Shown: in pieces, positions 1 to 50,010 of the stretch
Layout of the letters: every line of letters starts with the position of its first letter
Numbering within the stretch: position 1 is the first letter of the stretch
Source of the DNA: a virus
Length of the DNA stretch: 53,287 nt
Virus record (IMG/VR): IMGVR_UViG_3300005096_000121
Coordinates: 1-53,287 of that record
Direction: 5' to 3' (one strand)
Program-made: the position numbers and the translations under genes
Notes under the pieces: model-generated
What the model was told of the DNA's origin: nothing
The model's input: only the letters and a program-made list of their open reading frames with translations
Databases searched by the model: none

Positions 1-71
1 TACAGAATAACTCTCTCTCTCTCTCGTATCCCATGTATGGTGAAATCTATTCACACCTTCTTATATCTTTA

Positions 72-129
72 GGGACTCCTACTTATAGTTTTCAATTAAG
101 GGACTCCTAGAAATACTTTGAGACTCCTA
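72..129 (+). repeat. Three direct repeats of GGGACTCCTA at the left end
   Basis: GGGACTCCTA occurs at 72-81 and 100-109, with a variant GAGACTCCTA at 120-129. The copies are interleaved with two copies of another motif (79-92 and 138-151). The stretch lies just upstream of the first gene, so a regulatory role is likely, but no clear -35/-10 pair with standard spacing was found. Confidence 0.55.
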
Positions 130-8032: not shown

Positions 8033-8104
8033 AGAACGTGACGGGAATCGAACCCGCTTAGGTGGGGTTGAAATCCCACTGCCTGACCAATCGGCATCAC
8101 GCTC
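8033..8104 (-). tRNA. tRNA, probable Glu (UUC), with an 8-base anticodon loop
   Basis: On the minus strand the acceptor arms GAGCGTG / CACGTTC pair over 7 positions (one G-U). The D arm is GCC..GGC, and the T arm is GCGGG-TTCGATT-CCCGT. The anticodon stem GTGGG / CCCAC leaves an 8-base loop, ATTTCAAC, rather than 7. Placing U33 normally gives UUC (Glu), while counting from the 3' side gives UCA. No CCA is encoded. Such phage tRNAs usually supplement host decoding. The extra loop base could be functional or a sign of decay. Confidence 0.8.
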
Positions 8105-8515: not shown

Positions 8516-8836
8516 TTAAACTGCGTGAGTACCTTCAACTTTTCTTGCTTCTCGATCCGCTGTCCGACTATTCAAAGAGCTTAGGGCTTGGTCCAAGTAC
8601 CTAATCGCTTCAGCGTTTGTTTCGCAATTAAACTTTCCTTGCTGATAAAATTGGATGCGATCAATTGCGGCAGAAATGATATCCTCAACAAACGCTCCGT
8701 TAGGTTCAATTCGATCTGCATCGCGATTCAGTGGACCGTTCTGCCAACCGATCGTAAAGCCTTGACCGAATGTCGTACCTCCCGCAGGATTTCCGTTTGC
8801 GTCCAGGAATTGGTTGCTTGTGAATTTACTTTGCAT
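8516..8836 (-). CDS. Acb2/Tad1-hairpin-like small phage protein (possible anti-defence)
   Basis: 106 residues. After an N-terminal IGWQNGPL strand comes NGAFVEDIISAAIDRIQFYQ, a conserved cysteine/asparagine turn (NCETNAEAI), a helix (YLDQALSSL) and the C-terminal signature RTADREARKVEGTH. This order (QNGP, NG..., then a helix ending R..R..RgVEGTH) is what I recall for small phage proteins placed in the Acb2/Tad1 hairpin superfamily, some members of which sequester cyclic nucleotide signals of CBASS or Thoeris. The assignment is from memory; the sponge function is inference and not every such family member is known to act this way. Confidence 0.55.
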   Translation of the reverse strand: MQSKFTSNQFLDANGNPAGGTTFGQGFTIGWQNGPLNRDADRIEPNGAFVEDIISAAIDRIQFYQQGKFNCETNAEAIRYLDQALSSLNSRTADREARKVEGTHAV

Positions 8837-9794: not shown

Positions 9795-10937
9795 TTACTT
9801 GGGAACTAAATCATAATAGACAGGAGGACCAAGTTCCCTTGTTGGTATCTCTGTCACGTCTTTCGACTTCGGCAACTGCTCTAATACTATAGCAACTATT
9901 TGTTCTATTTGTCTACTTGATATTTCAGCAGTCTTTCCAGTTTCTCCTCGCTCTCCCTTTTCACCTTGGATTCCTTGGATACCCGACTCTCCCTGATCCC
10001 CCTTTGCTCCCCTCGGCTCCCCCTGGATCTCCTTAGGCTTACAACAAGAGTCTGAACAAGACTTTTCTAGTCTTTCTAGCCTCTTCTTGTTGAATGATGT
10101 CTCCCTCCTGAGTTCTTCAATCCTCCGCATAATGTCATCCATATTTGTGTCTGGAACCCTAGATACGGGCTGCATACCCCGATTGGGGGGTAATAGAGGC
10201 TGTATTGGCCCAATCACTGGTCCTGGGTTGGGTGTTTCTACTAGCATAGGCTGAGAGGCTCTAGGAGCCATTCTACGGTAGCCTGGAGGAATGCAGCTAT
10301 TACCACGACAATCGAAGCCAGCACTCTGTAGGAAGGCCTTGAAGGGTTCTCCATGGCTACCGTAAGAGAATCCACTACCGGACTTACCCCAGTGGACCGC
10401 CACTAGATTCCCTCGATCATCAAAAACTCCACCTCCTGAATCTCCTGATCTGGTCTGAGCAGTAGTCATCAGGCTGGTCAAAGATTGATTGGACACACTC
10501 CCAAGAATGTTACCTGGAGAGGCTTGAAAAGTATTAGAGCTTCCATATCCACAAACAGATATCTGACCTTGTGGATTGAGATTTATTCCGACTGGATCAG
10601 CTTTTGGATTGAGAATTACCAAAAGAGATAAGTCAGCTTCTTTGTTCATTTTGTAGAGACTAGCTCCGTGAGAATACCCACCATCCATGATGACAGTGAC
10701 TTTTCCCACACCATCATCAAAGATGTGAGCACAAGTGAGAATCAATCCTTTGCTTCTGTCAGACTTGATATCCACAAGAGTTCCAGAACCGCCGTCAATC
10801 ATCCCACTGTTGTAGTTCGTAATTCTACAAGAAGCTTGTCTTGGTTCTGCTGCTCGCAGTAACGTACTGAACAGAACAAGAACAACAAGAAGACTAGCAA
10901 AACCTCTATAAAACCAATGATTATCTACTGTTTTCAT
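9795..10937 (-). CDS. Secreted trypsin-like serine protease with collagen-like stalk
   Basis: 380 residues. A signal peptide or anchor (residues about 11-30) precedes a chymotrypsin-fold domain with the full triad: His71 in LTCAHIF, Asp102 in KEADLSLL and Ser167 in RSGDSGGGVF. A proline-rich linker, a coiled coil (MRRIEELRRETSFNKKRLER), a CCKP cysteine pair and nine Gly-X-Y triplets (about residues 325-352) follow, suggesting a trimeric stalk. ATG 10937 is chosen because AGGGAG lies just upstream; a start 15 bases earlier has none. It is probably exported. With no endolysin seen in the window, it may attack a protein envelope during lysis, though this is inference. Confidence 0.85.
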   Translation of the reverse strand: MKTVDNHWFYRGFASLLVVLVLFSTLLRAAEPRQASCRITNYNSGMIDGGSGTLVDIKSDRSKGLILTCAHIFDDGVGKVTVIMDGGYSHGASLYKMNKEADLSLLVILNPKADPVGINLNPQGQISVCGYGSSNTFQASPGNILGSVSNQSLTSLMTTAQTRSGDSGGGVFDDRGNLVAVHWGKSGSGFSYGSHGEPFKAFLQSAGFDCRGNSCIPPGYRRMAPRASQPMLVETPNPGPVIGPIQPLLPPNRGMQPVSRVPDTNMDDIMRRIEELRRETSFNKKRLERLEKSCSDSCCKPKEIQGEPRGAKGDQGESGIQGIQGEKGERGETGKTAEISSRQIEQIVAIVLEQLPKSKDVTEIPTRELGPPVYYDLVPK

Positions 10938-10966
10938 CGCACTCCCTTTCAATGAACTTAAAGAAT

Positions 10967-11419
10967 TCAGTCGGTTTTTCCTGGAGAAGGATGGGTGGGG
11001 GAAGCTAGTAGTAGTAGTGCGTACCCACCTAAATCTCTAATGGTGTCTTCCAAGGACTCTTCTACCTTCGGATTAGATTTCACGGTTAAGAGGTTATTCA
11101 TGCGGGCAATCTTATCTGACATTCGCACTAGGATTGCTTCGTTGTCTTTTAGGTGGGGTGCAAGGATCGGAGTATCCCAAACCGTACTTCCGTAGTCTAT
11201 GTTTTTCTTGAGCAGAGTTGTAATCCATTGAAGTCCTACAAGGGCAATTCTTTGCTGATCTTCTCCGAGTTCCCCGTGCAGTGCTTCATCTAAGAGGATG
11301 GTGTCTTCCCCGATTTGTGGGTACGTTTTGTCGAAGTTTTCTTCTTTCATCTTGGCCTTTATGTGATTGTCATAGGTCTTTATTTGTCTATTCGCATACT
11401 GAAACTCCCGAAATCCCAT
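10967..11419 (-). CDS. DUF1599 (Nmad1-type) protein
   Basis: 150 residues. The middle and C-terminus carry the DUF1599 pattern: LLKKNIDYGSTVWD (Asn-x-Asp-Tyr-Gly), VRMSDKIARMNNLL and ESLEDTIRDLGGYALLLL. This family has been named 'nucleotide modification associated domain 1' from its gene neighbourhoods in phages. ATG 11419 is chosen because GGAGAG precedes it; a TTG 15 bases upstream is weaker. It is the first gene of the minus-strand block. Its biochemical role is not established; a link to nucleotide pools or base modification is possible. Confidence 0.75.
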   Translation of the reverse strand: MGFREFQYANRQIKTYDNHIKAKMKEENFDKTYPQIGEDTILLDEALHGELGEDQQRIALVGLQWITTLLKKNIDYGSTVWDTPILAPHLKDNEAILVRMSDKIARMNNLLTVKSNPKVEESLEDTIRDLGGYALLLLASPTHPSPGKTD

Positions 11420-12121
11420 GAAACTGCTCTCCAATTGGGTAGTTGTGCGTGACTGCGAAAGTTCAAGATACCGGGATTTTCACGGTTTGCAACCAAAAAA
11501 ATGCGAATTCCTAAATTTGTGCATTGATCTATCCCCCCTGAATAGGCTATCCTGCTGCGAAGTGGCTGCAAAATCTTAGATGGGTTTTGTAGTCTGTAAG
11601 AAAGCTCAGTTAAGTAGATTTGTGATGTGACAAAGAAATGTGAGATCGGTCGTTACGATCCAATCGTACTTCCCTAAACAATTTCGGCACACCACGTAGC
11701 TACAACAAAACATTCCCAAGCCCGAATGTAAGGAGTCCGGAGACAGGCTTTACCGTGAGTCTGTTCAAAGCTGTGGCGTGAGTGACTAATAACTCCAAGC
11801 AATGTCCAATCCTGACAACTTGGCCGGTCCATAGGATCAGAGACATATACTCCTCTGATCCGTGAAATTTAATCTATTTGGATTAAACATATACTCGCGA
11901 TAAGCTTCTCAACTTGGACTGAGTGATTGCAACATAAAAGATATCCACTTGAAGGAAACCATGTTACTTTAATATGGACCGGATAATGGATACGGTTTGT
12001 CTACACTGTATTATTCCCTGTTGTTTCAGGTGAATTTTCTCTATAATCGAATGAAATCATTCTAATTTTCATTCCCAAGTAGCATTCATAATCTACTTAT
12101 ACATATCTGAGGAGCACAACA
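11420..12121. other. Divergent intergenic region, about 700 bp
   Basis: Separates the minus-strand block from the plus gene at 12122. It contains a perfect 9-base hairpin fused to the dispersed motif (11834-11874), a partial motif near 11475-11487 and a TATAAT at 12042-12047 with a weak upstream TTGTTT (spacing 15). No supportable gene was found. It is likely the control region for both flanking units. Confidence 0.55.
11834..11874. repeat. Hairpin joined to dispersed motif, copy 3
   Basis: GGATCAGAG / CTCTGATCC form a perfect 9-base foldback. Its right arm runs directly into the reverse-oriented motif CTGATCCGTGAAATTTAATC (11855-11874). TTTAATC also pairs with GATTAAA just downstream, adding a second dyad. 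Confidence 0.7.
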
Positions 12122-48954: not shown

Positions 48955-50010
48955 ATGATAAATTACATAAAAAAACTATTGTTCCCGTCAAAGGATAGAA
49001 ATGCACCCTCTAAAAATGGCTACCTTGAATCCTACCAAGAGTTACCGTGCATAGGAAAGGTGAGAGGTCAGACACTAGCCAAGAGTGCTATGTTGATTGC
49101 TGCGGCAGGGAATCATAACCTGCTACTCGTGGGTCCACCTGGAGAGGGCAAAACGCATCTTGCGAGTACACTCCCCTCATTCCTTCCCCCACTATCATCT
49201 CACGAGGCAAACACCCTAGAGACTCTCTATTCCGAAGCGGGCTACAAATTCCATGACAAGTATCATCGACCATTCCGTTTAGTTCACCACTCAACATCTA
49301 TTGCAGGATTGATAGGCGGCTATTCATCTCTCACGAAAGGAATCGTACCTGGGGAGATTACCCTAGCTCATAATGGAGTCTTGTTTCTTGATGAGCTAAC
49401 AGAATTCAAACGCGAAACCTTAGATGCTTTACGACAACCTATGGAAGCTGGAGTGATCCAAGTAACACGCTCCGGACAACAACAGACGTTCCCCTCTCAA
49501 TTCCAACTAATCGCTGCAAGCAATCCTTGCAAGTGTGGCTATGCGGGAACGTCTCATTGCACTTGCTCCCCTTACGAAGTACGACGATACCTATCACGGA
49601 TCAGTGGACCTATTATTGACCGCATTGATATGGTTTCACGGATTCACCCCACAACCAAGGAAGACCTTTCTGCTATTCCCGTCGCGAATCAATCCAAGAC
49701 CTATCTGATAATGGTTTTGCAAGCTCGACTGATTCAAGCGAGACGCAATGGACCGGGAAGATACAACGCTCATTTATCTTACGACGAGCTACTGAAGCAA
49801 ACCCACTCTAAAGCAACCCTTCATCTCCTTAGCATGAAGGACAAGAACCCTAAATTTTCAACTAGAAAACTTATACGCACTTTGCGAGTCGCAAGAACCG
49901 TAGCAGACTTTCTTTCACCGCTAGAAACTACCAGGACGAATCACGTAGAGGTAGCTCTGAAGTTTGTAGACTTCGACCTAGCAGAACAATTCATGCCCAA
50001 GCAATCCTAG
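48955..50010 (+). CDS. ComM/YifB-like AAA+ ATPase lacking the N-terminal domain
   Basis: 351 residues versus about 500 in bacterial ComM. Matches the ATPase and C-terminal parts: KVRGQTLAKSAMLIAAAGNH, Walker A GPPGEGKT (60-67), TSIAGLIGGYSS, Walker B GVLFLDEL (141-148), LDALRQPMEAGVI, AASNPCKCGYAG with the CTCS cysteines, DRIDM, and a C-terminal 'FSTRKLIRTLRVARTVADF' segment. ComM is a hexameric branch-migration helicase in natural transformation. The N-terminal Lon-like/chelatase domain is missing. It probably acts on recombination intermediates of the phage or of the host. Confidence 0.85.
   Translation: MINYIKKLLFPSKDRNAPSKNGYLESYQELPCIGKVRGQTLAKSAMLIAAAGNHNLLLVGPPGEGKTHLASTLPSFLPPLSSHEANTLETLYSEAGYKFHDKYHRPFRLVHHSTSIAGLIGGYSSLTKGIVPGEITLAHNGVLFLDELTEFKRETLDALRQPMEAGVIQVTRSGQQQTFPSQFQLIAASNPCKCGYAGTSHCTCSPYEVRRYLSRISGPIIDRIDMVSRIHPTTKEDLSAIPVANQSKTYLIMVLQARLIQARRNGPGRYNAHLSYDELLKQTHSKATLHLLSMKDKNPKFSTRKLIRTLRVARTVADFLSPLETTRTNHVEVALKFVDFDLAEQFMPKQS

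Follow-up and report, generated by a model that had tools for sequence, protein, structure and literature searches.

We analyse a stretch of viral DNA of 53,287 bases (IMG/VR record IMGVR_UViG_3300005096_000121, classed as linear; hereafter the window) and, within it, a small gene at 8516-8836 on the minus strand. The gene is an ATG-started open reading frame (ORF) of 106 codons, and its 106-residue product is probably a working sponge from a branch of Tad1, a family of phage proteins that capture nucleotide signals of host immunity. The protein ends in RTADREARKVEGTHAV. The C-terminal string RTADREARKVEGTH, quoted in the original prediction for this locus, is present and is followed by the two final residues (AV). 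The upstream gene (9204-8845) stops 8 bases short of the ORF, and a promoter and terminator scan returns nothing exceeding shuffled sequences. The parts of the gene and protein are listed in Table 1.

Table 1 Features of the Tad1-like gene and its product (positions in the window)
Feature	Position	Strand	Basis
Tad1-clade protein coding sequence, 106 residues	8516..8836	-	ORF; Tad1 matches in PDB; PHROG 2428 E 1.1e-20; AlphaFold2 model with mean predicted local distance difference test score (pLDDT) 85
AGGA, putative Shine-Dalgarno-like sequence, 6 bases 5' of the start codon	8843..8846	-	sequence reading
Residues 1-31, N-terminal part with three predicted beta strands (5-11, 17-24, 27-31)	8744..8836	-	DSSP on the AlphaFold2 model; aligns with Tad1 structures over model 1..106
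Residues 16-20, N-P-A-G-G motif, branch-typical	8777..8791	-	alignment counts
Residues 32-49, Q-N-G-P-L ... E-P-N-G-A-F loop, four residues longer than in canonical Tad1	8690..8743	-	alignment counts; low model confidence
Residues 50-97, Acb2/Tad1 helical hairpin with Y64, N74, R91, R95	8546..8689	-	two helices in the model; alignment counts
Residues 98-106, C-terminal tail with V-E-G-T-H	8519..8545	-	alignment counts

Sequence relationship to Tad1

When 177,635 distinct PDB sequences are searched with phmmer (E<=1), the window protein matches seven, namely six Tad1 sequences and gp184. The best match is CmTad1 (E 1.4e-8), and CbTad1 is matched at E 4e-6. Five of the six Tad1 sequences are labelled 'Thoeris anti-defense 1' in PDB; the sixth, 7uav, is labelled 'ABC transporter ATPase' and is titled C. 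botulinum prophage Tad1 in the Foldseek listing. To extend the search, we use an alignment (A1) of the window protein with 68 distinct proteins from 80 IMG/VR loci, which are 52-66% identical to it. The profile of these 69 relatives retrieves the same seven PDB sequences at E<=10, with better values (2.7e-16 for CmTad1 and 1.3e-13 for CbTad1). PHROG 2428, which we read as the cluster containing Tad1, matches the window protein and all 69 members of the alignment. With tblastn, relatives are found in 114 of 50,697 phage records, including the SBSphiJ7 and SPG24 genes annotated as Tad1. Profile-profile comparison with a canonical Tad1 alignment gives E 2.2e-32 over 75 columns. The match to Tad1 is not due to chance. 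The window protein and the known Tad1 proteins (CbTad1, PDB 7uav, 7uaw, and 8smd; CmTad1, 8kbb-8kbd; SBSphiJ7) belong to the same sequence family from the strand before Q-x-G to the C-terminus.

The seventh match, gp184 (PDB 8y6v), we take to be the Tad1 of phiKZ, following passages of two reviews (PMC12043709, PMC13282480). It shares the hairpin and the tail with our family (profile E 8.6e-8), but it has 230 residues, with the match limited to profile positions 46-105, and so has additional sequence at the N-terminus. Since gp184 is a chain in a solved PDB entry and phiKZ is reported, in a passage of one review, to inject its Tad1 (PMC13282480), the window protein might be imagined as a component of the virion or head, injected into the cell and active as a sponge upon entry. 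We consider this highly improbable, the least probable of the readings discussed here: the window protein amounts to the 106-residue core only and has nothing resembling a virion-targeting part.

Predicted structure

AlphaFold2 with alignment A1 gives a model with a mean pLDDT of 85 and a predicted template modelling score of 0.75. The model has the Tad1-type order, in which an N-terminal antiparallel sheet, here of three strands, precedes two long C-terminal helices (residues 50-65 and 72-97). The two helices form a hairpin. The weak part of the model is the loop of residues 31-50, with a pLDDT of 66 for residues 31-40 and 59 for residues 41-50.

Tad1 entries fill the first 20 Foldseek rows (E 8.7e-6 to 2.5e-3), and the next row is at 0.22. 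T4 Vs.4, an Acb2 protein (PDB 7uq2), ranks far lower, at row 44 with E 3.2. Passages of a review describe Tad1 as having two helices preceded by four N-terminal strands, and Acb2 as having two long helices along with a short N-terminal one (PMC12043709). The predicted fold of the window protein is shared with Tad1 along the whole chain, with three predicted strands instead of the four described. Acb2 proper, considered as the closest family, is ruled out by the N-terminal strands, by the lack of an N-terminal helix in the model, and by the structural ranking. Judged by sequence and model, the window protein is related to Tad1 more than to Acb2. The assignment to the Acb2/Tad1 superfamily, originally proposed from the C-terminal pattern, is thus backed by independent sequence, profile, and predicted-structure tests; what stands is a Tad1 relative with N-terminal beta strands and a hairpin, and what falls is an Acb2-type all-helical protein.

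A branch with its own residues and conserved columns of a putative pocket

To compare residues, we count 80 distinct branch rows and 43 distinct canonical rows, leaving out L131, L177, and T4 Vs.4. The sampling beyond A1 comprises a second set of 79 loci, of which 62 are used, the others being set aside after visual inspection as near-duplicates or as first-set contigs met again, and a third set, 80 kept of at least 292 IMG/VR relatives, in which 22 new distinct proteins are counted (L231 is the same protein as L137).

Four differences separate the branch from canonical Tad1. First, the branch has an N-P-x-G-G motif (P17 in 78/80 rows, G19 and G20 in 79/80) where 41 of the 43 canonical rows have a gap; the motif stands in place of the canonical N-terminal A-x-H loop, in which A27 is invariant and H29 is found in at least 90% of 13 rows. 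Second, the position before the conserved Q is W31 in 78/80 branch rows versus F in all 43 canonical rows. Third, the spacing from Q32 to G47 is 14 residues in 67/80 branch rows versus 10 in 41/44 canonical rows. Fourth, Y64 (78/80) replaces an F (41/43). The branch N-terminus is also shorter, and the window protein has 106 residues compared with a canonical median of 122 (42 rows). The C-terminal tail is nearly constant in the branch, with E101 in 80/80 rows, G102 in 79/80, and H104 in 76/80.

Other columns are common to both groups. N74 is present in 79/80 branch and 43/43 canonical rows, and R91 and R95 are each present in every row of both (80/80 and 43/43). Because one of the first-set search patterns contained Y, we repeat the count on the 22 new proteins, which come from Y-free patterns; Y64, N74, R91, R95, and W31 are each found in 22/22. 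A further group of rows, neither branch nor canonical and shorter or more divergent at the N-terminus, keeps both R91 and R95 in 19/19. Residues F82, N92, R109, and R113 of CbTad1, which we take to be residues of the pocket for glyco-cyclic ADP-ribose (gcADPR), fall on Y64, N74, R91, and R95 of the window protein (phmmer alignment; chain positions one higher). If that assignment holds, the pocket columns are kept (N, R, and R), the exception being Y64, where a phenol takes the place of a phenyl ring. A literature search for F82 and N92 with Tad1 returned nothing useful.

In the Vibrio phage members L088 and L179, Y64 and x-P-x-G-G are present, but F (not W) and the short loop are kept, suggesting that the branch changes arose stepwise.

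In a quick tree (145 rows, 76 columns; 69 of 141 inner branches below 80 support), one branch with a Shimodaira-Hasegawa-like approximate likelihood ratio test support of 97 holds all rows with the motif together with L137, L140, L154, and two Vibrio rows, and is poorly resolved inside. The row labels come from a motif search that missed L137, L140, and L154, which is why the motif label needs four changes on the tree. By sequence, the branch of the window protein appears to be a variant form of the known Tad1 family. The N-P-x-G-G branch is undescribed in the available parts of the reviews, the Acb4 preprint, and the Panoptes paper, and the trees in the founding Tad1 papers may well include such sequences.

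Two members have a longer, cysteine-containing insert in the loop ahead of E-P-N-G (L086 9430-9813 and L044 2355-2726). The L086 insert has C-x-C-C and histidines and might bind metal.

Proposed function and alternatives

The solved Tad1 is a hexamer made of three dimers. By analogy, small subunits that each combine N-terminal strands with a hairpin of two helices would assemble into a dimer-based oligomer. Its inter-subunit pockets, lined by Y64, N74, R91, R95, the E-P-N-G loop, and the V-E-G-T-H tail, would bind the signal that the host makes after infection, which would be gcADPR of Thoeris defence and/or cyclic di- and trinucleotides of the cyclic-oligonucleotide-based anti-phage signalling system (CBASS). 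The signal would be held intact and unbroken, so that the suicide effector of the host stays off. As described in passages of a review, Tad1 binds gcADPR and cyclic dinucleotides in the same six pockets and cyclic trinucleotides at trimer interfaces, and the cyclic dinucleotides bound vary among homologs (PMC12043709). We therefore regard it as likely, reasoning from the family to an anti-defence role, that the gene encodes a Tad1-family phage sponge sequestering nucleotide immune signals; its form would most likely be that of an oligomeric sponge for gcADPR and/or cyclic di- and trinucleotides.

Several observations weigh against this assignment. The Pfam model of the hairpin (PF24729, Acb2_Tad1_hairpin; gathering score 27 bits) does not match the window protein even at E 10. 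It does match T4 Vs.4 (7e-20), with which the window protein shares the hairpin superfamily, SBSphiJ7 Tad1 (2.9e-8), and, more weakly than Vs.4, 33 of the 69 alignment members at E<=10 (best 4.3e-8), but it misses Agrobacterium phage OLIVR5 gp79c, Acinetobacter phage ABMM1 protein 82, and Vibrio phage 1.244.A protein 161. Because the model also misses these other Tad1-like proteins and seems tuned towards the Acb2 side, its silence weighs little. In VIA-align, CmTad1 (Z 8.3, rmsd 2.7, 98 residues aligned) and CbTad1 (Z 8.2, 100 aligned) cover model 1..106 and T4 Vs.4 (Z 6.0) covers residues 38-106 only, but the score of a designed helical bundle is 7.9, and the tool itself notes that a Z of about 8 lies within the chance best-match range for helical models. 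Since Z values of this size are common, the fold evidence rests on Foldseek and on sequence. As for the defences to be countered, no candidate partner emerges in the hosts: a SMODS nucleotidyltransferase is found in none of four genomes carrying relatives, and a ThsB-type TIR in one of nine, within a frame of 1080 residues that is not necessarily Thoeris; these counts carry little information. Finally, the pocket aromatic and the N-terminal region depart from canonical Tad1, and the ligand choice could differ for this reason.

The last point leads to a related reading, a sponge whose specificity has switched. The F-to-Y change, the lengthened loop, and the strand turn at N-P-x-G-G would let it capture a signal that canonical Tad1 binds poorly or not at all, for example a different isomer of cyclic ADP-ribose, or cyclic oligonucleotides only. 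Consistent with this, the four differences are branch-wide, some of them lie near the presumed pocket, and the canonical A-x-H has no visible counterpart in the branch. However, all basic and Asn residues attributed to the gcADPR pocket are kept; the changes are not one package, because the two Vibrio proteins pair Y64 with a short loop and F; and the variation in bound cyclic dinucleotides noted above already occurs among known Tad1 homologs. Such a switch therefore seems rather unlikely. A further claim, which we hold to be distinctly doubtful, is that the N-P-x-G-G branch forms a functionally distinct Tad1 class capturing a signal that known Tad1 proteins do not, with a remodelled N-terminal sheet, a longer loop, and a tyrosine at the presumed ligand-contacting position, and that this class is common in uncultivated viruses. 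If true, it would point to an undescribed signal or defence type in the hosts.

The protein could also be a relative in fold that has lost nucleotide binding or never had it, and that does another job, for example as a subunit of a phage complex. In its favour, PHROG 2428 is listed as unknown function, and we know of no binding test of an N-P-x-G-G protein. Nonetheless, the pocket columns are near-invariant in 80 + 22 rows, and no conserved neighbour hints at a complex, making such a role very improbable.

The branch differs from canonical Tad1 in a clean set of features, so that setting wild type against Y64F, or one loop form against the other, could reveal what determines the signal choice. 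Such a sponge could also fish undiscovered signals from infected cells.

Distribution of relatives

An alignment-based scan confirms at least 292 IMG/VR stretches that encode relatives. One strict peptide pattern finds five loci in genome assemblies, on contigs labelled Phycisphaerales, Omnitrophota (two), Amesbacteria, and Actinomycetes. Cultured relatives include Vibrio phage 1.244.A gene NVP1244A_161 and Vibrio phage vB_VpaS_SD25 protein XHB37348.1. The genome behind L082 belongs to Planctomycetota; among 392 genomes of that phylum, the profile matches 6, in five cases restricted to roughly positions 25-105. Among plasmids, 6 of 72,556 records match, weakly. As far as sequence can tell, putative Tad1-like sponges extend well past the cultured phages where the family was discovered.

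Some members have unusual architectures. A single assembly (Bin_62) has two sponge copies, on the two Omnitrophota contigs (L083 and L084); past V-E-G-T-H, both copies continue into an additional low-complexity C-terminal tail of some 55 residues. Burkholderia phage FLC9 gp131 (L178 206-1219) is one annotated coding sequence of 338 residues for a cyclophilin-Tad1 fusion, in which a cyclophilin peptidyl-prolyl isomerase domain (PF00160, E 2.5e-44, residues 3-162) is joined to a Tad1-like C-terminal part.

Genomic setting

When ORFs within about 5.5 kb of the gene are clustered by BLAST across 74 loci, no neighbour family occurs in more than four loci, and we reject the idea of a conserved operon partner. 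A cluster from 20 loci is the antisense shadow of the sponge gene. The sponge ORF itself is kept as one cluster in only 45 of the 74 loci, partly because the longest-first choice of ORFs let such shadows displace it. The lack of a conserved neighbour among the 74 loci accords with the gene being an accessory one in unrelated viruses. PADLOC finds no match among eight proteins at or near the small-gene block, and together with the lack of a recurring neighbour family this leaves the original description of the block as a typical home for anti-defence genes without support.

Searches with other genes of the window find no close relative of the virus. Queries with the terminase and the upstream neighbour retrieve no related IMG/VR locus, and those with the major head protein and the protease retrieve no phage record; the DNA polymerase has only distant matches, all below 60% identity. 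The protease (9795-10952, minus strand) is trypsin-like, contains a short collagen-like repeat, may have a signal peptide, and is unmatched in the phage collection. A tRNA lies at 8033-8104 on the minus strand (Rfam RF00005, 38.8 bits; not reported by ARAGORN), with the anticodon read by eye as UUC (Glu). The gene at 10967-11434 (minus strand) matches PHROG 1485 (E 1.5e-13) and, weakly and below the cut-off, the nucleotide-modification family DUF1599. On the plus strand, 48955-50010 encodes Mg-chelatase ChlI domains (PF01078, E 4.4e-73, and C-terminal PF13335), consistent with a ComM-like protein.
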